Shown here piece after piece: positions 41,850 to 53,905 of a stretch of DNA of 64,000 nucleotides. How positions within the stretch are numbered: the stretch's first letter is position 1; every line of letters begins with the position of its first letter. The notes under the pieces are model-generated. The model was not told the DNA's origin, did not search any database, and worked only from the letters and a program-made list of their open reading frames with translations. Origin of the DNA: Deltaproteobacteria bacterium (GTDB lineage Bacteria > Myxococcota_A > Polyangia > HGW-17 > SLPX01); assembly GCA_021162935.1 (NCBI GenBank), contig JAGGXR010000115.1, positions 1 through 64,000 on the forward strand, in the 5' to 3' direction. The position numbers and the translations under genes are program-made.

Positions 41850-44537
41850 TCAACCATTGTCGGATTTTCCCTGGTACTGCTCTTCGAGAAGGGTCAAGGC
41901 CACGGCCAGCGCCTTCTTGGTCTTGTCCACAATCATCTGATTCCGCTCGGCCTCCCCCACCTGTCGGCCCAAACGCTGCTCGACCAGGACGACGTTGCCT
42001 TCGAGTTCCGAAATGCGTCCCTGTGCGCTGTCCAACTGTCCCGACAGATCGTCTGCGCGGCTCGACGCCTGCTCCAGTTCCTCGCGCAAACCGGAGATGG
42101 AACCTTCCAGTCCCGCAACCTTGGCATCCCTCGCCTGCTCGATTTCAGATATTTTCTGTGCATGCTCCTCATTCAGGCTGGCAATCTTCGATTCATACTC
42201 GCCACGCACCCGGTCCTGCTCCTGGCTATGCGTCGCCCTGAGCTCCGACACTTCGGCCTCGTGCACCTGTTCCATGGCAGCCATCTTCTGCGCATGCTCC
42301 TCCTGCTGGACAGCCAACTTCGATTCATACTCGCCACGCACCCGGTCCTGCTCCTGGCTATGCGTCGCCCTGAGCTCCGACACTTCGGCCTCATGCACCT
42401 GTTCCATGGCCGCCAACTTTTGCACATGCTCCTCCTGCTGGACAGCCAACTTCGATTCGTACTCGCCGCGCAGTCGGTCCTGCTCCTGACCATGTGCCGT
42501 CTTGAGTTCCGACACTTCGGCCTCATGCGCCTGGTTCAGCTCCGTCACCTCGGCCGTATGCGCCTCCTCCACGGCTGCCATCTTCTGCGTATGTTCCTCC
42601 TGCAGACCCGCAATCTTCAACTCATACTCGCCGCGCAGTCGGTCCTGCTCCTGACCATGTGCCGTCTTCAGTTCCGACACTTCGGCCTCATGCGCCTGGT
42701 TCAACTCCGTCACCTCGACCGTATGCGCCTGGTTCAACTCTGTCACTTCGGCCTGGTGCGCCTGGTTCAGCTCCGTCACTTCTGCCGTATGCGCCTCTTC
42801 CATGGCAGCCATCTTCTGCGCGTACTCCTCCTGCTGGGCAGCCAACTTCGATTCATACTCTCCGCGCAGCCGATCCTGTTCCTGACCGTGTGCCGCCTTG
42901 AGTTCCGACACTTCGGCTGCATGCGTCTCTTCCATCGCCGCCGTCTTCTGCGTATGCTCCTCCTGCAGACCCGCAATCTTCGACTCATACTCTCCGCGCA
43001 GCCGATCCAGCTCCTGGCCATGCGTTGCCTTGAGTTCCGCGACCTCACCCTCATGCGCCTGATTCAGCTCCGCAGTCTCAAAGTTCCGGGCTTCTTCCAT
43101 GGCTGCTATCTTCTGTGCATGCTCCTCCTGCAGATCCGCAATCTTGGCCTCATACTCCCCGCGCAGAGCGTCCACTTCCTCTTCGTGCGTCGCTTTGAGC
43201 CCCGTAAGGACCTGTGCAGCCTCCTCTTTGAGACGAGCGACCTCGCCCCGATGCTGATCCTCGATGCGGGTCAGAGCCTCCTCGTGCTTGGCCTTGAGGC
43301 TCTCCACCTCGGTTTCGTGCGTCGCCTTGGTTTGGTCGATGTCTTCCTTCAGGCCTGCCACGGCTTCTTCGAACGTCGCCTTCTCTGCCGCACGCCGCTG
43401 CTGCTCCTGCTCCAAGGTCTCGGTCAATTCGGACACCTTGTCCTGAGACTGACGCAGGCTCCCGCCTAAGCTCTCTTTTTCAGCCTGGAGGGCCTCGAAC
43501 CGCTCGGCCCCCTCCACCTTGTCCCGTTCCAGTTCGAGATTCTTGCTGGCCATATCCTGTTTAGCCCGCTCCAATTCACGGATCTTGTCCTTGAGGTCCA
43601 GGATCTCCCGCTCTTTGCCTCCCAAAGCCTCTTGGAGATCCAAAACCTCCTTTTCCTTTCGATTGATGGTCTCCCGGAGCTTCAAAAACTCGCGCTCCTT
43701 ACTGACCCCCCCCTTGGAGGACTGAGCCGTCTGCTCACTATTGAGTTGTTCGAGTTCGGCGGCCAGACGATCCCGTTCCTTCCGCAAGACGGACATTTCG
43801 TCTTCCTGGCCCGAAGCCCCAGATTCCTCCCCGTTGACCACGTCATCGAGGCCAAGGTCCAAGACGTCCTCTTCGACGACCTCTTCTTCCTCCATGTCAC
43901 CGACATCGACTTCTTCTTCGACGACCTCTTCCTCCTCCATGTCGCCGACATCGACTTCCTCTTCGACAACCTCTTCTTCCTCCTCTTCGACTTCGTCGAG
44001 AGAGATCGTGTCGCCTCCGCCATCACCATCCAACTCCAACGCAGCGAATGCAGCCTCGGTCTCTGCGTTCAGATCGACGTCCTCCATCTGGTTCACCTTG
44101 GTCTTTTCGTCATCGAACTCTCCACCCTGGACCTCGGGCGCTACGATCTTTTCCCCCAATGGAACGATGCCATCGACCACGTCAAGAAACAGATCGACCG
44201 TAAAAGCGTCGTCTTTGAGAATGTATGCATCGGCTCGCGCACGAAGTCTCTTGTGCTGCTCGAAGGTCTCGGGAACAGCTTCGGAAGACATCAAAATCAG
44301 TGGTATCTTCTTGAGTTTCTTGTCTTTCTTAATCTTCGTACAGACCGCATAGCCGCTCATCTGCGGCAATTCCACGCACAACACAACCAAATCAAAGGAG
44401 CCTGACTTGACCCGTTTGATGGCAGCAGCACCATCTTCAATGAGTTCTCCCTCGAATGCGTAGGGAGCCAAGGCATCGAGCAACTGCCTAGCGAACGATC
44501 GGTCGCTTTCAACGATCAGAACCCGTCTCGAGCTCAT
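41850..44537 (-). CDS. FrzS-like pseudo-receiver with long coiled coil
   Basis: Residues 1-125 form a response-regulator receiver fold ([33 protein letters not shown]). The phospho-acceptor Asp is C54 (VVLCVELP), so it is probably a pseudo-receiver. An acidic stretch with a repeated [10 protein letters not shown] motif (about 180-230) follows, then about 600 residues of coiled coil. The coil contains near-identical 44-residue repeats ([20 protein letters not shown]...; 132-bp DNA period) between about 42.2 and 43.1 kb. The architecture matches FrzS of Myxococcus xanthus, a polar protein for type IV pilus motility. Own promoter; downstream of the pil and roadblock genes; hflX follows. Confidence 0.85.
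42170..43150. repeat. 132-bp coding tandem repeats in FrzS-like gene
   Basis: Successive copies encoding 44 residues with the core EAEVSEL..HxQEQDR.RGEYESK....QEEH.QK.AA; the two nearest 42.25-42.5 kb are almost identical, the more distant ones diverged and partly shortened to ELNQAH units. The copies suggest expansion by unequal recombination. Confidence 0.75.
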
Positions 44538-44759: not shown

Positions 44760-45125
44760 CTATTCGAGTTGTTTAAGAATCTTGGGAACCTGCATGCGCA
44801 GGACAAATCGCGCTTTACCGAAATTGCCATTCGGGGCAAGGGCCAGCAGCACGAAATACTCCTGGCTGAGAATCCGAAAGACCAAAGTGAGGCGATCCGC
44901 ACGAATAGCCACCTCTTGGACCTGGCCTTCTTCGAGGAGTTCGGCAGCCTTGCTCATCTGGGTCATGACGATGGAAAGCTCCATTCCCACCGTCTGGATA
45001 TCGAAGGGCTCGTCGAGATCCGGCCTCGTGTAGGCATCGATCGAAATCCCGTCGAATCCCATCAACAAGGCGGCCTTAGAGCCTTCGACCTTCTCAACCA
45101 TTTCCTGGAGATGCTCACGAAACAT
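44760..45125 (-). CDS. Roadblock/LC7-domain protein (MglB-like)
   Basis: 121 residues, essentially one roadblock/LC7 domain: helix with MVEKVEGSKAALLMGFDGISI, the central strands and long helix (ELSIVMTQMSKAAELL), and the closing helix (KARFVLRMQVPKILKQLE). In bacteria such proteins form dimers and act with small Ras-like GTPases, as MglB does with MglA in polarity control of Myxococcus motility. No mglA-like gene is visible here. GGAAGGG precedes the ATG. It is the last gene of the pil operon, 24 bp after the lipoprotein gene. Confidence 0.85.
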   Translation of the reverse strand: MFREHLQEMVEKVEGSKAALLMGFDGISIDAYTRPDLDEPFDIQTVGMELSIVMTQMSKAAELLEEGQVQEVAIRADRLTLVFRILSQEYFVLLALAPNGNFGKARFVLRMQVPKILKQLE

Positions 45126-45149: not shown

Positions 45150-45899
45150 TCAGGTCCCGGTACCCGAACCGTCAGTGGTTGTTGTGGGCGCCACTGCAGG
45201 ACATACCAGTTCTGCTCCTTGGGTACAACATTCGATTGGATCGTCCTGCGACGGATTGCACCCGTTTCCCTCCTCCGGATCCGATGGAATCGTGTCAGAA
45301 CTGCACAGGCCAAGATTCTTCACCAGGCATCCATTGCAGACGAAAATTGGATACGACATCGAATTGGAGGAAAGGTCATGACTGCCGCGGCTGCCCACGA
45401 TATGGACCTTCGCGATGATCAGCTTGCTGCTGCCCTGGCTGATCTGATCGGCAATCAGTTCGACCACCTGAGAGGGAATGACACGCACGGACACCACCTT
45501 CTCCTCGCCGGGACAAATGGTCATACTCAATGGAACCGAATACTTCGTCAGGTTACTCTCCACATACTCTCCAAGGTCTCCAAGATCGAGGTCCACCCGA
45601 GCCTCCCGAATCGTAATGCAGTTTTCCTCGATGGTTCCAGCCGATGGATCGGCCGTGGACATCAGATTGTTCTGAATCAATGGGTACAAATTATAGTAGG
45701 CTGGCTGGTTCTTTTGCAGGTACCAGGCCACGTCCAACGTACCCTGAGTCCGGTATGCTCCAGTGCCAGAACTGTCCACGCTGCAACCGTCGCCTGGAAT
45801 CTGATTCTGTATGATCAACAGGGTTGCACTGTTGCTCTCACAGCCTCCCAGCACGAGGGCCGACAACACCATCGCCACAAGCAAGCTCCGTCTGGTCAT
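45150..45899 (-). CDS. Lipoprotein downstream of pilQ
   Basis: Signal peptide with LVLGGC (lipid at C20). The 230-residue mature part has a beta-rich core and six or more late cysteines (CNGC, LCSSD, NGC, ECC, VC), ending in a Thr/Gly-rich tail. The ATG is one base after the pilQ stop, with GGAGAAGG inside the end of pilQ, so translation is coupled. A role in secretin assembly (a pilotin-like part) is possible by position only; no sequence match to known pilotins is evident. Confidence 0.8.
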   Translation of the reverse strand: MTRRSLLVAMVLSALVLGGCESNSATLLIIQNQIPGDGCSVDSSGTGAYRTQGTLDVAWYLQKNQPAYYNLYPLIQNNLMSTADPSAGTIEENCITIREARVDLDLGDLGEYVESNLTKYSVPLSMTICPGEEKVVSVRVIPSQVVELIADQISQGSSKLIIAKVHIVGSRGSHDLSSNSMSYPIFVCNGCLVKNLGLCSSDTIPSDPEEGNGCNPSQDDPIECCTQGAELVCPAVAPTTTTDGSGTGT

Positions 45900-45900
45900 G

Positions 45901-48900
45901 CTACCTTCTCCCTCCCCCGGCCGTCGATCGCACGATCCGAGGCGTGATGAAAATCAACACTTCGGAACGATCATCCGACTGCTTTCGCTTCTTGAACAGC
46001 CAGCCAATAATCGGAATATCAGCAAACCAGGGTATCTTCGAATACGCAACCGCAGTCTTGCGGGTATAAATACCGCCAATGACCGCTGTGTCGCCGTTCT
46101 TGACCAACATCTCGGACTCGGCGTCCTTCTTCAAAATCGTCGGGTCGCCACGCGCTCCTGTGTTGACGAAGTCGGGCTCGTTTTTTTCCACCTTGATCTT
46201 GAGACGAACCCGATTGTCGTTCGTCACATGCGGCGTCACCACGAGCCCCAGGTTGGCCTCCACGAATTGCGTGTTCACACCCTGAGCCGACACGACGCTG
46301 ATCGGAATCCGCACGCCCTGTTCGATTTTTGCCTGCACGTTGTCCAAAGTCGTGATCCTCGGTGACGAAATGATGCGAACGTGCCCTGTTTCCTCCATGG
46401 CAGACAGACGCAAATTGATATTCACCGCTCCCCCGAGCGTGCCGAGGCTCAGGCCGAGCGCGCCGCCTCGGCCAGCACCCACCGTCGCAGGCAGGTTGAC
46501 CGCAAAATTCGGATTCGCCGCCCCGGCACCGATGATGCCGCCGCTGTGTGTATCCTGATCCATGCCGCCACCAGCTGCACCAATGGTAAACGGAAACATC
46601 AGCCCCGTGGGCATCCCAGTCGCGGGGGACGCCAACAGGTTACCACCCCATTGTATCCCTATTTCTCTTAAGAAGGTAGAACGAGCTTCCACGATTCTGG
46701 CCTCGATCACGACCTGCGGCGTGGGCGTATCGAGCGTCCGCACCAGCTTCTTCGCAATCTCGATATTGGGCACCACGTCCCGGATGATGATCGAATTCGT
46801 CCGTTTGTTGAACGTCACCTTACCCCTGGCGCTGAGCACATTCTCCTTGAGTTGCTTGGCAACCTCTGCCGCATCTCCATAGTTCACGCGAATCACCCGC
46901 ATGACCACCGGCATAGCCTTCCGCTTGATCTGGTTCGCCTTCTGATAGGTCTGTATCTCTTTTTGGATGTCCTCCATCTTGGCCACACGAATGATGTTGC
47001 GTCCCTCCCATACCAAACCGAGATTTTTGGATTTCAGGATCACATCCAAGGCACGCCCCACCGGTACGTCGATCATTCTGATGGTGACCTTCCCTTGGAC
47101 ATCGTCCGAGACCACGATGTTCTTCTTCCAGACTTTTCCGATGAGCCGCACGACGTTGTGGATGTCGGCATCCTTGAAATCCATGTCGACCTTGGGTCCC
47201 AGCCATCTGCGGCCCATCCGATACTTGCGCCGCCAGGCTGTCGAGGGACGATATGGAGCCATGGCTCTCGTTGCGGACCGATAACCACCCACGCGCCTTC
47301 TCGCAATAGCCACCTTGGTTGGTCCGCTCTGGATGCGCGACAGCTTCGAAAAATCGAGCCACAGAGCGCCGCCGCCACGGTTCACACGAAAACGAGCCGG
47401 ATGCTTCAATTCAACCAAAAGGTCCACAATGCCCCTGGTCCGTCGCTCCTGGTACGCGCTGACCATCTTCACCGGACCAGTGAAGGCAGACGTATCCAGA
47501 CTCCTCTCAAGTCTGCTGGGAAGTCTCACTCCGAACAACCGAACGAGAACCTTGGTGCCCTTCCTGCGGACATCGTAGTCGAATGGGCCAGCCATCCGAA
47601 TCGTCACCCGATGGTCCCTTCCCGTATCTCTGAACTGAACCTTCGACACCCTCGCCCGAATTCGCAGCTTGCGAGGTCGGGCCTTGCGGGCCAACTTGAA
47701 CTGAGATCGAACCTTCTGCAACCGGCGCACCAACGCTCTGTTTTGCACCAGAAGGGCCCGGCGTCGTGCTTCTTCAGCCAGCCGTTCTTTTTTGAGCCGC
47801 TCCACCCTGGAAGCCAACCTATCCAATTGAGCGCCCGTCTTACGCTGAGCACGCCTCACATATCCCAACGCCGCCCGCTGCCGACGAACCAGTCGGGTCA
47901 AACCCGACACCTGTCGTTCAAGCTTCTTCTTCTGCAGAGCCAACCTCGCCAGTCGTCGCTCCTCACCACGTCGTTCCACGACGAGTCGCTCCTTGACCCG
48001 CAACTCCGAGGCACGTTGGGTGCGAATCCCCTGCAACTCCGCGAGCAGCCTCGTCACCTTCTGTTCAGCAGCCTTGCGCTGCCCCGTCGCCTCATCCAGA
48101 TCCCGACGTGCCGCTTCGGCTCGCCTGCGTGAACTCTCCTGCGCACGAACAGCATGTCTCCGTGCCCTGGCGAGCCGCGCCAGAGCCTCTTGTTGCTTGG
48201 TAATGGCACCGGTCAATCCTGCCAGTTGCCGTCTCACCCGCTTAATTTCATTGAGCCTGCGACGACGCTCCCTGGTCCATTGCGCCATGGCAGCCTTCCT
48301 CGTGGCTCGACCTGCACCGGCCAGACGTTGCATCGCCTGCGTGCGTGCATGGCGCAGATCGGCCTGCATCCTCTTGAGTGCCTGCACCTGAGTTGCAAGG
48401 ACTCCCCGTGATCGCCGAAGGGTCCGTCCGTCAGATTCTGCCTGCCGGGCGAGTTGCTCCGCACGTCGTCGCGCCTTCCGCGCCTGCGCCGTCCGACTCA
48501 ATTCCTCGGCCAGCGCCTTCCGCACAATCTTCAGTCGCCGACTCAGGGATCCATAGGCCTTGCGGAGTTGTCTCTGTCGTCGTTCCTCCTTGCCGCTCAA
48601 AGCCACGAGGCGTCGATATCGAACCACCAGGCCCGACACCTTGGTCTCCAGACGTCTCTTCTGCTGCAATGCGGCATCCCGAAGACCTCGGGCCTGGTTG
48701 GCCTGCGATTTCGCCTGCTTCAGCAACGCAATACGCTGAGTGACCTGTTGCTCCAATCGCTGCAGATTCCGGCGTGCTTCTACAGTGGCGCCCTGGCTCG
48801 CTTTCTTGGCCTGCTCGATTTTCGCATACTCGCTGCGTGCCCGACGTAGCTGCTTTTCAGCCTGTTTGAGGGCCTGGCGCACCCTTGCGGCAGCCTTTCC

Positions 48901-50856
48901 GCCTCTTCTTCGAGCCTGCGCCAATCGAGTTCGATACTTCGCCACCACGGCACCGGCGGCACGAACTCTCCCAGAAACCTCGCTCAGTCTCGTCTTGAAC
49001 ACGGCGGTTTGTTCCGCAGCTGCGGCAACGTGACGACGCGCCTGGGAAAGCTGCCGTTCCAAGACCGCCTTTTGGCGAGCCATGTCACGGTGCTCCTGCT
49101 CGAGCGTCCCAAGACGCCGTGCTAAAGCATCTGCCCGACGCTTGGCGACCCGCGCGGATCGCTGATACGAACGTACCGTATTCTTTGTGTCGGCAGCCTG
49201 CCTCGCCAGGGCCTGCATCTGCTTCCGTGCCTGGGAAAGCTGCATCCTGAGAACGCCCTGACGCTTCTTGGCCGCTGCACTCTCGTTTCGATAGGACCGT
49301 GCGTCCGCTCTGGCCCTACGAGCCTCGATACGGAGCTTCGCCAGGTCTGCTTTAACCTGCGTCGCTTCCGCTTTGGCACGCCTCATTTCCGCCCTGAGTC
49401 CCGCGATCTGCTGCAGGGACGCCTTCCGGCGAGCCGCGAGCCACCTTGCTCGCGCCGCCTTGGCTGCAAGACGGGCCCCTCGGGTCTTGAGGCGCCTCGC
49501 CCTCCGTATGGCTCTACGAGCCGCCAGATGCAGTCTCTTCGCCAAAAGTCGTGCAGTGTTGAGTTCGCCTTGCAGCCTCACGGCTTCGGCGCGCGCCTCC
49601 TTCGCTTCAAACTTCGCTGCCCGCGCTTCAGCCCGGACCCATTTCAACTTCGCGGACGTCTCCTGGGCCGATCCTTTCAGACGTCGTGCCTGGACACGAA
49701 GTCGGTCCGCCTCCTGTCTCGCCTGCGCCGCCTCACTCCGAGCACGCAGCACTTCGTGGCGCGCTGCATTGAGGCGCTCCCGGGCGTCGGCTTCGGCCTT
49801 TCGCAGCATGTTGGTCTGCTGGCGCAACCGAGTTGCTTCCTGCGCTGCCTTGGCTGCCTGGCTCCTCGCCTGTACAAGCCTCGCCTGGACCTGCGCCTTC
49901 GATGCCTTCAACCGTGCCGCCTGCTGCGCTGCCTTGGCTGCCTGGCTCCTCGCCTGCGCAAGCCGAGCCTGGACCTGCGACTTCGAGGCCTGCAACCGTG
50001 CCGCCTGCTGCGCTGCCTTGGCTGCCAGCCGCTTCGCCTGCGCAAGCCGAGCCTGGACCTGCGACTTCGAGGCCTGCAACCGTGCCGCCTGCTGCGCCGC
50101 CTTGGCTGCCTGGCTCCTCGCCTGCGCAAGCCGAGCCTGGACATGCGACTTGGATACTTGAAGCCGCGCCGCCTTGGAACGCAGGCGGTTCAATGCCATA
50201 CGCGTTCGGGCCAAGGCGCGTCTATCCGCCGACGAAGCCGCCGACTTGGTCGACTTCATCCGCTGCATCAGCATCCTCAGCCTGGCAGCCTCTCGGCGTG
50301 CCGCTGCGAGCGTCTGACGCTCCGAGGCCGCAGCCGCCTGGTTCGAGGCCTTCAATTTGGCAACGATCGCACGGAGTCGGGCCGCCTCCTGTCGGGACTG
50401 ATCCAGGGCATGGTGGTCCTTGGCCGCATTCGCCGGCGGTTTCGCAGAGGCTGTCACCATCAGCACGACCTTGTTGCCCGAAGAACGCACGTCATAAGCA
50501 CCCGGTCGCCGGAAGGTAATCACCACTCTCGTAATTGCCGATCGGGCATCCGAGAACCGAGAAAGGGCCACCTGGCCCACGGCCCAAGAATCCACATTGA
50601 TGGGACTCGTCAGCCGCATCGTGGACGTGTTGGCCAAATCCACGACCACGCGATCGGGCCTGGTCAGCTTGTACACCGTGAAGGTCGGCTTCGACCTCAA
50701 CGACAGCGTCACCACGGCACTGGCGCCCCTCTGGGTCCAGGTCACCTTGTCGAGGATATTGAGCGTCCTGCCCCTTGCGCTGCCTGCAAGTAGCAAGACC
50801 CCCAAGCCCACGATCACCTGTGGGGTCCCCCATCGTTGCATTCGTACCTTCCTCAT
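45901..50856 (-). CDS. pilQ: Type IV pilus secretin PilQ with giant coiled-coil insert
   Basis: Outer-membrane channel of the type IV pilus. Signal peptide; AMIN domain at about 35-130; about 920 residues (about 145-1065) of Arg/Lys/Ala/Gln-rich coiled coil; a second AMIN-like domain at about 1070-1170; the STN/N0 domain from about 1220 (KVDMDFKDADIHNVVRLIG); N1 (VMRVIRVNYGDAAEVAKQL); and the secretin core ending FITPRIVRS. Canonical PilQ is 700-900 residues; this one is 1651. Part of the insert consists of four near-identical 28-residue repeats. The coding frame is unbroken from the signal peptide to the secretin. The ATG overlaps the pilP stop by 4 bp (ATGA). Confidence 0.93.
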   Translation of the reverse strand: MRKVRMQRWGTPQVIVGLGVLLLAGSARGRTLNILDKVTWTQRGASAVVTLSLRSKPTFTVYKLTRPDRVVVDLANTSTMRLTSPINVDSWAVGQVALSRFSDARSAITRVVITFRRPGAYDVRSSGNKVVLMVTASAKPPANAAKDHHALDQSRQEAARLRAIVAKLKASNQAAAASERQTLAAARREAARLRMLMQRMKSTKSAASSADRRALARTRMALNRLRSKAARLQVSKSHVQARLAQARSQAAKAAQQAARLQASKSQVQARLAQAKRLAAKAAQQAARLQASKSQVQARLAQARSQAAKAAQQAARLKASKAQVQARLVQARSQAAKAAQEATRLRQQTNMLRKAEADARERLNAARHEVLRARSEAAQARQEADRLRVQARRLKGSAQETSAKLKWVRAEARAAKFEAKEARAEAVRLQGELNTARLLAKRLHLAARRAIRRARRLKTRGARLAAKAARARWLAARRKASLQQIAGLRAEMRRAKAEATQVKADLAKLRIEARRARADARSYRNESAAAKKRQGVLRMQLSQARKQMQALARQAADTKNTVRSYQRSARVAKRRADALARRLGTLEQEHRDMARQKAVLERQLSQARRHVAAAAEQTAVFKTRLSEVSGRVRAAGAVVAKYRTRLAQARRRGGKAAARVRQALKQAEKQLRRARSEYAKIEQAKKASQGATVEARRNLQRLEQQVTQRIALLKQAKSQANQARGLRDAALQQKRRLETKVSGLVVRYRRLVALSGKEERRQRQLRKAYGSLSRRLKIVRKALAEELSRTAQARKARRRAEQLARQAESDGRTLRRSRGVLATQVQALKRMQADLRHARTQAMQRLAGAGRATRKAAMAQWTRERRRRLNEIKRVRRQLAGLTGAITKQQEALARLARARRHAVRAQESSRRRAEAARRDLDEATGQRKAAEQKVTRLLAELQGIRTQRASELRVKERLVVERRGEERRLARLALQKKKLERQVSGLTRLVRRQRAALGYVRRAQRKTGAQLDRLASRVERLKKERLAEEARRRALLVQNRALVRRLQKVRSQFKLARKARPRKLRIRARVSKVQFRDTGRDHRVTIRMAGPFDYDVRRKGTKVLVRLFGVRLPSRLERSLDTSAFTGPVKMVSAYQERRTRGIVDLLVELKHPARFRVNRGGGALWLDFSKLSRIQSGPTKVAIARRRVGGYRSATRAMAPYRPSTAWRRKYRMGRRWLGPKVDMDFKDADIHNVVRLIGKVWKKNIVVSDDVQGKVTIRMIDVPVGRALDVILKSKNLGLVWEGRNIIRVAKMEDIQKEIQTYQKANQIKRKAMPVVMRVIRVNYGDAAEVAKQLKENVLSARGKVTFNKRTNSIIIRDVVPNIEIAKKLVRTLDTPTPQVVIEARIVEARSTFLREIGIQWGGNLLASPATGMPTGLMFPFTIGAAGGGMDQDTHSGGIIGAGAANPNFAVNLPATVGAGRGGALGLSLGTLGGAVNINLRLSAMEETGHVRIISSPRITTLDNVQAKIEQGVRIPISVVSAQGVNTQFVEANLGLVVTPHVTNDNRVRLKIKVEKNEPDFVNTGARGDPTILKKDAESEMLVKNGDTAVIGGIYTRKTAVAYSKIPWFADIPIIGWLFKKRKQSDDRSEVLIFITPRIVRSTAGGGRR
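49830..50165. repeat. 84-bp coding tandem repeats in pilQ
   Basis: Four copies of an 84-bp unit encoding 28 residues (four heptads) such as LQASKSQVQARLAQARSQAA. Equivalent bases (CGCCTG on the plus strand) fall at 49867, 49951, 50035 and 50119. The copies are almost identical, indicating recent duplication within the coiled coil. Confidence 0.85.
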
Positions 50857-51521
50857 GGCGCTGCTCCCTTATGTTTGCGTCGCCGCAGATAGCGGTGACG
50901 ACGCCATCCCGACAATCGGATGCCCTGCTCGTCCGGCTTGAGCGGTTGCGCGCTGATTTCGACATCCTTACGACTTGGGTCCACCCACAGGATGCGTTCC
51001 ACAAACGTGGGCCTCTGCCCTGCCGTCAACTGCGGAACCTGAAGAATCACGTGGTCCTCTGCAATGTCGACGATCAGCGCCTTCGACTTGGAAATCCTGA
51101 CCCCTTTCGACACGTTCGTCGTCCGTCCGCCCGGAGTCCGAAACATAGCCATTCGGGGCCGACGCCCGCCAATGCCCGAAAGAGCCAATTCACTCAACTC
51201 ATACTGTTCCAACAACACCACTCTGGTGTCCTCGAAGCTCTCGGCAGGCAAAATCGTTGCTTGTGGCTTGAGAAAATCGCGAAACGGATCCCGGTTCGCC
51301 TCGGTGTTCTCGATAAAGTCCTGCTCCGAAACTTCTGGCAGAGACTTCCATTTGGTCCCTTTCCGATGATGCGTGCGCCTGCCCCCGCTGGATGCACTGT
51401 TTTGTGGCGTCCCCCCCCCGGCCTTCGGACGAGTCTTTTTCTGGCCTCGCCGTCCCGTGCTCTGGACCTTTTCTCCACAGCCAACGAGCAACACGATCAA
51501 CATCAGGCCGAGCCACCTCAT
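50853..51521 (-). CDS. pilP: Type IV pilus lipoprotein PilP
   Basis: Inner-membrane lipoprotein linking PilN/PilO to the secretin. Lipobox LLVGC with lipid at C15, a long disordered Thr/Gly/Arg-rich stretch, then the PilP beta domain from about residue 75 beginning with NRDPFRDFL and LEQYELSELALSGI. 222 residues, somewhat longer than E. coli-type PilP because of the linker and a basic C-terminal tail. Starts 2 bases after the pilO stop with GGAGGT nearby, and ends overlapping pilQ. Confidence 0.92.
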   Translation of the reverse strand: MRWLGLMLIVLLVGCGEKVQSTGRRGQKKTRPKAGGGTPQNSASSGGRRTHHRKGTKWKSLPEVSEQDFIENTEANRDPFRDFLKPQATILPAESFEDTRVVLLEQYELSELALSGIGGRRPRMAMFRTPGGRTTNVSKGVRISKSKALIVDIAEDHVILQVPQLTAGQRPTFVERILWVDPSRKDVEISAQPLKPDEQGIRLSGWRRHRYLRRRKHKGAAP

Positions 51522-51523
51522 CG

Positions 51524-52123
51524 CTACCTCCCACCCTTGGACTTGCGCGATCGATGAGCCAAGTACCGATACGTGGCAGCCTCACAGGTCACGGTCAGCA
51601 AAATTTGGCCGTCCTGAAGGCGTGGATTTTCCATCTTCACATTGCTGACCTTGACGATCCGATCCATCTTTCCAAGCTTCCAAAAAAACTCCATGACCCG
51701 ATGGTACTGCCCCCTGATGGTCATCTTGATGGGAATCCTGGCATATCCGGTATGCTCGTCTTCGTCCTCCCGCTCCACCGATGTCACTACGATACCCGCC
51801 GCATCGGCCATCTTGTGAATCGAACCCAAGGGAATCTCGCCGCTCTCGGGCAAACTCTTGATGAGGCGCAGACTCGTGACACGCAGCCGAGCCGTCTGCC
51901 TCTTGACTTTCAGATAGGCTTTGTACGTCTTGGTGGCATCCGCCAGCTTCTTCTTCTCGACGGCCAAGGTACCCTGAAGGCGGTCTCTCTTGTCCTTGAC
52001 GCCACGATAGAAGCCCACACAGTATCCGAGGCCCACTGCAGCCAGGGTCGCGAGCAGAATCGCCACCTTGGTGGCGTTTTCCATCTTTCCGACCCGGTCG
52101 TACACGGCTTCCATTCCCGGCAT
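51524..52123 (-). CDS. pilO: Type IV pilus assembly protein PilO
   Basis: One membrane helix at about 18-40, then a coiled-coil stretch (GVKDKRDRLQ...KVKRQTARL), followed by the ferredoxin-like periplasmic domain (IPIKMTIRGQYHRVMEFFWKL). 199 residues, normal for PilO. Pairs with PilN in the inner-membrane alignment complex. 19 bp after pilN, 2 bp before pilP. Confidence 0.93.
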   Translation of the reverse strand: MPGMEAVYDRVGKMENATKVAILLATLAAVGLGYCVGFYRGVKDKRDRLQGTLAVEKKKLADATKTYKAYLKVKRQTARLRVTSLRLIKSLPESGEIPLGSIHKMADAAGIVVTSVEREDEDEHTGYARIPIKMTIRGQYHRVMEFFWKLGKMDRIVKVSNVKMENPRLQDGQILLTVTCEAATYRYLAHRSRKSKGGR

Positions 52124-52142: not shown

Positions 52143-52850
52143 TCAATAGGCCACCTTGGCCGTAACCTCGAACTGATAGTAGTTCATCTTCCTGTTCTGA
52201 TCCGTGGTCAGGGCGCTGCGGTCCACCCGCACCGACAAGAAGTACCGAGACACCTTGAGCCTGCGCTCGAACTCCGCCACGTCCCCATTGGCCTTCGCCC
52301 CACCAACGATATGGACCTGACCCTGTTTCTCCTCCCAACCCAGGACCCACACCCCTGTCGGATTCCAGTTGGGATTGTAGTAGTCGAGTCGCCTGGTCGG
52401 ATCCAAACCCGACTTGAGGGTCGGGCCCCACTTTTCACTGAGGGCGCGGCTCAGTTCGCGCATCACCAACACGGGGCCTGGGCAAAATCGCTCCATGCGC
52501 TGCGTCGGACCACAACGGCTGGTGCAACTGACCAGCTTCTTGTCGCCGCTGCAACGGCAATAACACCCGGCCAGCACACGCCGATACGCTTTGCGACGTT
52601 TACGATACTTCCTCTTGAGTCGCTCATAATGCGTAACGTTACCGGTTTTGGCGATCACGGTCTTGGTCTGACGTTGCACCTTGGAAATCTGCGTCTCCAC
52701 ATCCCCCGTATCCTTCGCCACGAAGCGTGTGTGCAAAATCGTCACCAAACCAACGGCCGCCACGATGCTCACAAGAAAGAAAACAAGCTGGCGACGCCCC
52801 ATTTGGGCTCGCCTCGCAGCCTTGATCGGGAGTAGGTTAATCCGAATCAT
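52143..52850 (-). CDS. pilN: PilN with six-cysteine insert
   Basis: Begins with the PilN signature MIRINLLPI, which binds PilM, followed by a membrane helix at about 20-40. A basic coiled segment follows, and then GCYCRC...SCTSRC...RFC with cysteines at 96, 98, 100, 109, 113 and 123. The rest (about 130-235) is the ferredoxin-like domain, itself with a long loop. Typical PilN proteins lack this cysteine cluster. Being periplasmic, it could form disulfides or bind metal. The start overlaps the pilM stop (TAATG). Confidence 0.92.
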   Translation of the reverse strand: MIRINLLPIKAARRAQMGRRQLVFFLVSIVAAVGLVTILHTRFVAKDTGDVETQISKVQRQTKTVIAKTGNVTHYERLKRKYRKRRKAYRRVLAGCYCRCSGDKKLVSCTSRCGPTQRMERFCPGPVLVMRELSRALSEKWGPTLKSGLDPTRRLDYYNPNWNPTGVWVLGWEEKQGQVHIVGGAKANGDVAEFERRLKVSRYFLSVRVDRSALTTDQNRKMNYYQFEVTAKVAY

Positions 52851-53905
52851 TACAAATTGTCTCCCGGACGACGTAAAGCCAGCCCAAAAGCCACCGTAGC
52901 AATGGGGGAATGAGCCCGCAGGTACGGCATGTCGAACCGACTCTCATCCACGAACACGTTCCTGAACGGATCCAACACCTCCACGTCCAAATGGGCCCTC
53001 CGTTCGATCGCCTGACGCAACTGTGGTACCTGTGCGGTTCCCCCGCCCAGATAAAGACGCTCCACTTCCGCACCAGCCGTGGTCGCCAAGAAAAAGTCGA
53101 TGGAACGCTGAAGTTCCCCTGCAATGAGGTCGGACACCTGGGCAAGGACACGGCCCACTTCCTGGGGCACCACATCACCACCGCCAAGGGCTCCCGAACC
53201 CACCTTGTAGGCTTCGGCCTCTTCGTAGCCCACATGAAGCTGCTTCTGAATTTCCTCGGTGAACGCGTTGCCTCCGATGGTCACATCTCGCGTAAACATC
53301 GTGATGCCGTCCTGCACGATATTGAGAGTCGAAATGCTCGCCCCGAGATTCACCAATGCAATCGCCTGCCCCGCGGGAAAACCGTAGGACTTCTCGAAGG
53401 CGTTCTGTATGGCAAACGCAGCAATATCGACGACCAATGGATTGAGCTGCGCTTCTCTGGCGACAGCGGCATAGTCATGGACCATGTCCTTCTTCGCCGC
53501 CACGAGCAGCACGTCCATGTTGCCCTGACCATTGTCCTCCCGGAGCACCTCGTAATCCAGCTCCACGTCCTCCTTGTCGAAGGGCACGTGGTGGTCGGCT
53601 TCCCATGAAATCTGCTCGTCGAGTTGATCGGCGGGCATGGGTGGAATCGGTATCTTCTTGATGATGATGGAATGACCGGCAACGGCCAAGGCCACGTCTT
53701 TCTGTCGCACGTGCAACCTTGTGACCACGGCCCGAATGGCGTCAACGATCGCCGACTGATTCATGACGGCTCCGTCGACGATGGCCTGTGGAGGAATGGG
53801 CTCGATACCGAAATTCAAAAGGGTAAGACCCTTTTTCCCCTCCTTCACCTGAACGATCTTGATCGAAGAAGACCCGATATCGAGGCCTATGCAGTTCTTC
53901 GCCAT
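52850..53905 (-). CDS. pilM: Type IV pilus actin-like protein PilM
   Basis: Cytoplasmic actin/FtsA-fold ATP-binding protein that docks onto PilN. LDIGSSSIKIVQV at residues 8-20 is phosphate loop 1, VNLGASISTLNIV is loop 2, and LYLGGGTAQVPQL is the adenosine motif. 351 residues, the usual size. First gene of pilMNOPQ, 61 bp after the HTH gene, and overlapping pilN by one base (TAATG). Confidence 0.96.
   Translation of the reverse strand: MAKNCIGLDIGSSSIKIVQVKEGKKGLTLLNFGIEPIPPQAIVDGAVMNQSAIVDAIRAVVTRLHVRQKDVALAVAGHSIIIKKIPIPPMPADQLDEQISWEADHHVPFDKEDVELDYEVLREDNGQGNMDVLLVAAKKDMVHDYAAVAREAQLNPLVVDIAAFAIQNAFEKSYGFPAGQAIALVNLGASISTLNIVQDGITMFTRDVTIGGNAFTEEIQKQLHVGYEEAEAYKVGSGALGGGDVVPQEVGRVLAQVSDLIAGELQRSIDFFLATTAGAEVERLYLGGGTAQVPQLRQAIERRAHLDVEVLDPFRNVFVDESRFDMPYLRAHSPIATVAFGLALRRPGDNL

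Follow-up and report, generated by a model that had tools for sequence, protein, structure and literature searches.

A PilQ secretin with a 919-residue coiled coil between its AMIN domains and the possible lateral anchoring of pilus pores in Myxococcota

Results

The pilQ locus and its genomic setting

The window, by which we mean the whole 64-kb stretch of DNA analysed here, contains a pilus operon in the order pilM-N-O-P-Q in which pilQ is the final gene and is preceded by genes with Pfam matches to PilM, PilN, PilO and PilP (Table 1). The pilQ product of 1,651 aa scores 404.5 bits with the NCBIfam model for PilQ (TIGR02515), whose cut-off is 284.4, and its Secretin, N1 and N0 domains (PF00263, PF03958 and PF21305) all score above their Pfam cut-offs. 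Additionally, the top PDB match for a profile of its core region is M. xanthus PilQ (3jc8, E=1.6e-180). By every membership test run the gene is a genuine pilQ. Profile searches of the genome also recovered PilB (806 bits), a PilY1 match and, above cut-off, two ATPases of the PilT family, the presence of which makes a functional T4aP machine likely. A second, separate secretin of 875 aa is encoded on contig 57 beside a PilB/GspE-like ATPase, and the ComEC of this genome scores under the family cut-off.

Three further genes lie on the pilQ strand next to the operon. Directly downstream of pilQ is a gene for a probable lipoprotein of 249 aa that has no family match and is possibly a pilotin or PilQ accessory protein. 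There is also a gene for a 121-aa protein that resembles Roadblock/LC7 (MglB-like) proteins by eye and has no Pfam match at E 0.01. The third gene has an FrzS-like layout, in which a response-regulator receiver domain is followed by a coiled coil of large tandem repeats (33, 132, 165 and 231 bp).

Table 1. Positions in the window of the PilQ features, the pilus operon and the adjoining genes; residue numbers are those of the window PilQ
Feature	Coordinates	Strand	Evidence
pilM	52850..53905	-	Pfam PF11104
pilN	52143..52850	-	Pfam PF05137
pilO	51524..52123	-	Pfam PF04350
pilP	50853..51521	-	Pfam PF04351; immediately upstream, 4-base overlap with pilQ
pilQ	50856..45901	-	ORF list, single open frame
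Sec-type signal peptide, residues about 1-29	50770..50856	-	by eye: basic n-region RKVRMQRW, hydrophobic core VIVGLGVLLLAG, ASARG-like cleavage region
AMIN1, residues 33-136	50449..50760	-	Pfam AMIN, AMIN profiles, AlphaFold2 beta domain
Basic coiled coil, 919 residues (142-1060)	47677..50433	-	composition/coil mask, heptad periodicity z=16, constant register, AlphaFold2 helices
84-bp tandem repeat inside coil, 3.7 copies, unit of 28 residues (4 heptads)	49840..50151	-	repeat scan, 92% identity
Predicted hinge, residues 847-855 (GAGRATRKA)	48292..48318	-	half-heptad phase jump and predicted helix break
AMIN2, residues 1068-1170	47347..47655	-	AMIN profiles; AlphaFold2 pLDDT mostly 83-92
N0 match, residues 1225-1261	47074..47184	-	Pfam PF21305
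Secretin_N (N1), residues 1319-1381	46714..46902	-	Pfam PF03958
Secretin, residues 1486-1643	45928..46401	-	Pfam PF00263, 161.7 bits; also genome search
Probable lipoprotein	45150..45899	-	lipobox LGGC
Roadblock/LC7 (MglB-like) protein	44760..45125	-	by eye
Receiver domain and repeat coiled coil	41850..44537	-	

Domain architecture of the window PilQ

From its N terminus the window PilQ is composed of a signal peptide, a first AMIN domain (AMIN1), a 919-residue coiled coil whose borders were set by a simple composition mask, a second AMIN domain (AMIN2), the N0 and N1 domains and the secretin. The initial annotation had described an unbroken frame running from a signal peptide through an AMIN domain and a coil of ~920 residues into a secretin, and this is confirmed by the ORF, Pfam, AMIN profiles and AlphaFold2. 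It had termed the second domain AMIN-like, an assignment that holds and can be refined to a true AMIN domain on the basis of the profiles and the AlphaFold2 beta domain. Pfam AMIN matches the protein in two stretches, the best at residues 43-131, and by the AMIN profiles built here AMIN1 covers about residues 35-134 and AMIN2 about residues 1070-1169. AlphaFold2 modelling of residues 1-1195 gave beta domains at 33-136 and 1068-1170 (pLDDT mostly 77-92) with helix in between; these are single-chain models from shallow alignments (9 and 12 sequences) with a pTM of 0.27-0.28, in which the boundaries and the helix are usable and the overall shape is not. Thus, both domains flanking the coil have the AMIN fold as judged by Pfam, the profiles and AlphaFold2, with AmiC also present among the Foldseek hits of the L117 model. 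In the Foldseek search the domains matched secretins and AmiC, and the coil had no informative hit. Peptidoglycan binding has been reported for the AMIN domains of M. xanthus PilQ, P. aeruginosa PilQ and E. coli AmiC (PMC10653833).

Composition, heptads and register of the coil

Residues 142-1060 contain no Pro and no Cys and carry a net charge of +178, and the stretch 140-1075 consists of 22% Ala, 20% Arg, 11% Leu and 10% Gln. Hydrophobic residues in the coil recur with a period of 3.5 residues at z=16, and since this value is 16 standard deviations above composition-preserving shuffles the periodicity is beyond that expected from composition alone. Leu, Val and Ala dominate two of the seven heptad positions, with Arg, Lys and Gln prominent at most of the others, which is the pattern of a left-handed coiled coil with buried a/d positions. 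A stable single alpha-helix of the charged ER/K type was rejected on composition, as acidic residues make up about 7.5% and the hydrophobic heptad is strong.

The heptad phase drifts by no more than about one residue across residues 225-847 (about 620 residues). Near residue 850 (LAGAGRATRK) it jumps by half a heptad and is then constant to about residue 1040. This is the sole clear break in the window coil, and AlphaFold2 independently interrupts the helix at 847-855; further AlphaFold2 helix breaks at 273-288 and 502-511 both fall in low-confidence stretches. With the run-finding procedure used, the longest in-register run is 728 residues, the top value among 83 coils, as compared with a maximum of 252 in 20 shuffles. 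A register that holds for ~620 residues with one clear break near 850 argues against repeated hairpins. Additionally, a Gly/Pro (helix-breaker) peak at mid-coil was looked for across 77 coils and none was found, and a mid-coil hairpin is disfavoured on that account.

At 0.15 nm per residue the 919 residues would extend over about 136 nm, while an ordinary Gram-negative periplasm is about 30 nm wide (PMC13039148). The initial description of a basic Arg/Lys/Ala/Gln coiled coil, which as a straight helix would measure ~135 nm and far exceed the width of the periplasm, is in accord with the charge, the Arg content, the heptad signal and the extended length obtained here.

Distribution among Myxococcota

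By its named relatives the source of the window belongs to Myxococcota, probably to the class Polyangia. In most of the 78 relatives searched first the PilQ frame is 1,000-2,300 aa in length, and a survey of 238 genomes across the phylum turned up longer frames still. Once duplicates had been removed, the set of parsed PilQs comprised 157 proteins, all from Myxococcota. Among the 127 intact PilQs with two or more AMIN domains, the gap between AMIN1 and AMIN2 is 240-2,033 residues in 78 (median 681) and 18-99 residues in 49 (median 27), with none between 99 and 240. Looking for homologues of the insert beside secretin domains, as had been recommended, thus located a coil at the same site in 78 of 127 proteins, and the position of the coil is constant in the parsed Myxococcota PilQs, being always the AMIN1-AMIN2 interval. 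Coil-bearing proteins include the 1,466-aa PilQ of the isolate Paraliomyxa miuraensis SMH-27-4 (L108), which has a coil of 656 residues, and those of three single-contig genomes (L182-L184). The records recovered in a scan of named genomes, the Paraliomyxa isolate among them, bore titles of Myxococcota, Myxococcales or Deltaproteobacteria, and those of Polyangium sp. 6x1, a Labilithrix and a Byssovorax had coil-less PilQs of 770-800 aa.

Several individual genomes deserve mention. The longest coil, about 2,030 residues or ~300 nm if extended, occurs in a PilQ of 2,787 aa from a different Myxococcota class (L173, family f28). Two members of one family differ in that L202 has no coil and L211 has about 210-240 residues of coil, and L203 lacks a coil that its sisters carry; these are natural pairs for studying loss or gain of the coil. 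L142, another PilQ of this phylum, has three AMIN domains and lacks the coil.

The initial annotation had allowed that its reading would fall if the insert were an assembly chimera or if homologues encoded insert and secretin as separate genes. No AMIN-bearing coil ORF was seen beside a coil-less PilQ among the short PilQ ORFs inspected (L051, L082, L086, L104, L120, L161, L168, L169 and L172), and the AMIN domains found in a neighbouring ORF for L086, L104 and L120 look like the result of a draft-assembly frame break. The window is from a draft genome of 168 contigs, but a chimera or wrong gene call is virtually excluded, as 78 intact PilQs from many families and dozens of independent assemblies share this architecture, including those of the named isolate and the single-contig genomes.

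Evolution of the coil

In a FastTree tree built from the secretin core without the coil, presence or absence of the coil changes 5 times over 140 scored PilQs, as opposed to an average of 42 with shuffled labels; the tree is unrooted and does not separate gain from loss. The coil has been retained for a long time and is an ancient trait. Its dN/dS is mostly 0.13-0.45 with outliers at 0.68 and 0.94 (simple Nei-Gojobori estimates, with several pairs saturated), and it is under purifying selection that is weaker than that on the secretin core. Among coil indels of at least 5 residues in 15 independent close-relative pairs, 21 of 57 are multiples of seven (14% expected, p=2e-5). Of the 42 high-identity tandem arrays in the DNA of the coils, all 42 have a period that is a multiple of three and 26 have one that is a multiple of 21 bases (p=1.7e-12). 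These periodicities may in part be an artefact of aligning or scanning periodic sequence and are used as support only.

The heptad signal exceeds z=3 in 66 of 83 coils, and with the residue set used about 17 of the 83, mostly Ala-rich, have no clear signal. Coil length varies 8-fold between relatives, many of which have more register shifts than the window coil, so a single straight rod is not general. One relative, L036, keeps one register over 616 of 618 coil residues. Across these comparisons the sequence and length of the coil drift, but heptads, in-frame growth steps of seven residues and purifying selection persist. Net charge ranges from -37 to +245 across relatives, with many coils near neutral and some acidic, and high charge is typical of the order to which the window belongs, where most members have it and several relatives reach +91 to +245, and is also found in a few other lineages. 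Given this range basicity is not a general property of the coil, and the strongly basic character is specific to the lineage of the window.

Lengths of PilN, PilO and PilP

Median lengths of PilN, PilO and PilP are 242, 217 and 232 aa in coil carriers versus 236, 215 and 272 aa in genomes without the coil. Neither PilP (rho -0.04) nor PilN (rho 0.09) varies in length with the coil, and PilO shows a weak positive correlation (rho 0.41) that is uncorrected for descent. In Thermus, where the periplasm is about 70 nm wide, the PilP equivalent is about 60% longer (PMC13039148). As these proteins are not lengthened in carriers and PilP and PilN ignore coil length, the coil is probably not a sign of a wide envelope.

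Discussion

Comparison with known systems

The window PilQ shares with M. xanthus PilQ (901 aa) the pilM-N-O-P-Q setting, the core match and AMIN domains that are N-terminal of the N domains and secretin, but the M. xanthus protein has three AMIN domains where the window PilQ has two, and no coil has been described in it (PMC10653833). The PilQs of P. aeruginosa and Neisseria (714-761 aa in PDB) are arranged like the window protein as two AMIN domains followed by N0, N1 and secretin (PMC10653833), but have no described coiled coil between the AMIN domains and are less than half its total length. Thermus thermophilus PilQ is also enlarged at its N-terminal periplasmic end, in this case by a stack of six ring domains spanning a wide periplasm rather than by a coiled coil (PMC5745081). 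Long periplasmic coiled coils are known from Thermotoga Omp-alpha and other periplasmic spacers, although Omp-alpha is about 50 nm long, spans the periplasm and is not fused to a secretin (PMC5082667). TsaP, as the peptidoglycan-binding anchor of PilQ, resembles the role that we propose below for the coil and AMIN1 but is a separate protein. Since TsaP is reported in all myxobacteria surveyed, in a study that drew pilus genes at equal length (PMC6060248), the coil is probably an addition to TsaP and not a substitute for it. We found no description of a coil-bearing secretin in the open-access literature, and coil-bearing PilQ is apparently both widespread in Myxococcota and unreported.

A possible lateral anchor for the pilus pore

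Our leading interpretation, to which we assign a probability of roughly 0.45, is that PilQ rods pair and extend laterally over the cell wall, with AMIN1 positioned at a distance from the pore as the anchor of a force-spreading outrigger. AMIN1 would then be the outermost peptidoglycan-binding domain, carried at the tip of a very long coiled-coil rod, and AMIN2, N0, N1 and the pore would remain together at the outer membrane. A turn near residue 850 would divide the coil into arms of about 705 and 205 residues, and the greater part of it could then not pair with its own chain. The hydrophobic stripe would most simply be buried by pairing between different subunits of the secretin ring, and neighbouring subunits would most likely pair their rods in parallel. 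The periplasm has no room for rods of this length in an upright position, so they would run sideways along the peptidoglycan and may attach to it via AMIN1 at points as far as roughly 100 nm or more from the pore; with full extension of the coil, AMIN1 could lie as much as about 136 nm away in the window PilQ and about 300 nm away in the longest case. The outriggers would hold the pilus machine in place and distribute retraction force over a wide patch of wall. In M. xanthus the AMIN domains of PilQ bind polar and septal peptidoglycan and are required for polar recruitment (PMC10653833), and T4P retraction forces of >100 pN are reported (PMC3724824). Several observations count against outriggers. 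Coil-less PilQ works in M. xanthus and is the form present in Polyangium-type relatives, so the coil is dispensable for pili as such, and an 8-fold variation in length is unlike a precise spacer. The additional register shifts of many relatives, the coils with no clear heptad signal and the weak correlation of PilO with coil length also speak against this reading, and with its high positive charge the window coil would need an anionic partner or counter-ions in order to pair in parallel. More tentatively, most non-Myxococcia Myxococcota may use lateral coiled-coil outriggers of up to about 300 nm that anchor the T4P pore to distant peptidoglycan and that change in length via heptad-sized tandem duplications.

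The initial annotation had reasoned that the insert must fold back, bundle or extend sideways and could form a cage or ring around the pilus channel. A sideways course fits our results better, and folding back is disfavoured by the ~620-residue register and the missing mid-coil breaker peak. The cage itself is not borne out, and we retain it as an unlikely alternative in which coils fold back or bundle with their neighbours into a compact periplasmic structure. That the coil cannot fit upright, that 12-15 subunits would put >11,000 coil residues beside the channel, that the break near residue 850 could be a hairpin turn and that some relatives have several register shifts are all consistent with a collar of this type. 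It is difficult to reconcile, however, with the long constant register, with the unequal arms that a turn at ~850 would leave largely self-unpaired, with the single register of L036 and with the 77 coils that have no mid-coil Gly/Pro peak. Slightly less probable still is a passive tether, in which repeat slippage extends an unimportant linker in heptad steps that are tolerated and have no function in their length. Such a linker would be expected to evolve as the coil does in its fast length change, its tandem repeats in many genomes, its faster divergence than the core and its complete absence from several lineages; yet it does not account for the bimodal AMIN1-AMIN2 gaps, for so few changes in presence across the tree or for the maintenance of heptads, near-absence of Pro and Cys and purifying selection.

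The high positive charge of the window coil and of several same-order relatives raises the idea that the coil binds DNA during uptake or anionic envelope polymers, and Neisseria PilQ binds DNA (PMC2884949). We regard this as improbable since the charge is not conserved, many coils being near neutral and some acidic, and since the ComEC of this genome falls under the family cut-off. The rod could alternatively be a radial spacer across a very wide periplasm, for which Omp-alpha provides the precedent of a periplasm-spanning coiled coil. This is the least credible of the functional explanations, as PilN, PilO and PilP, which connect PilQ with the inner membrane, have medians that are the same or shorter when a coil is present, PilP ignores coil length and neighbouring families differ several-fold in the length of their coils.

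Implications

To our knowledge, how an outer-membrane pore withstands the pull of its pilus is not well understood. Within the open-access literature searched, a secretin with a giant coiled coil would be the first one found. A location of AMIN1 at the tip of a rod that is longer than the periplasm is wide, together with retention of this arrangement across the phylum, would provide a natural experiment on how such machines are anchored and placed. If the outrigger interpretation is true, then lateral outriggers would be load-bearing structures of a class new to the bacterial envelope.
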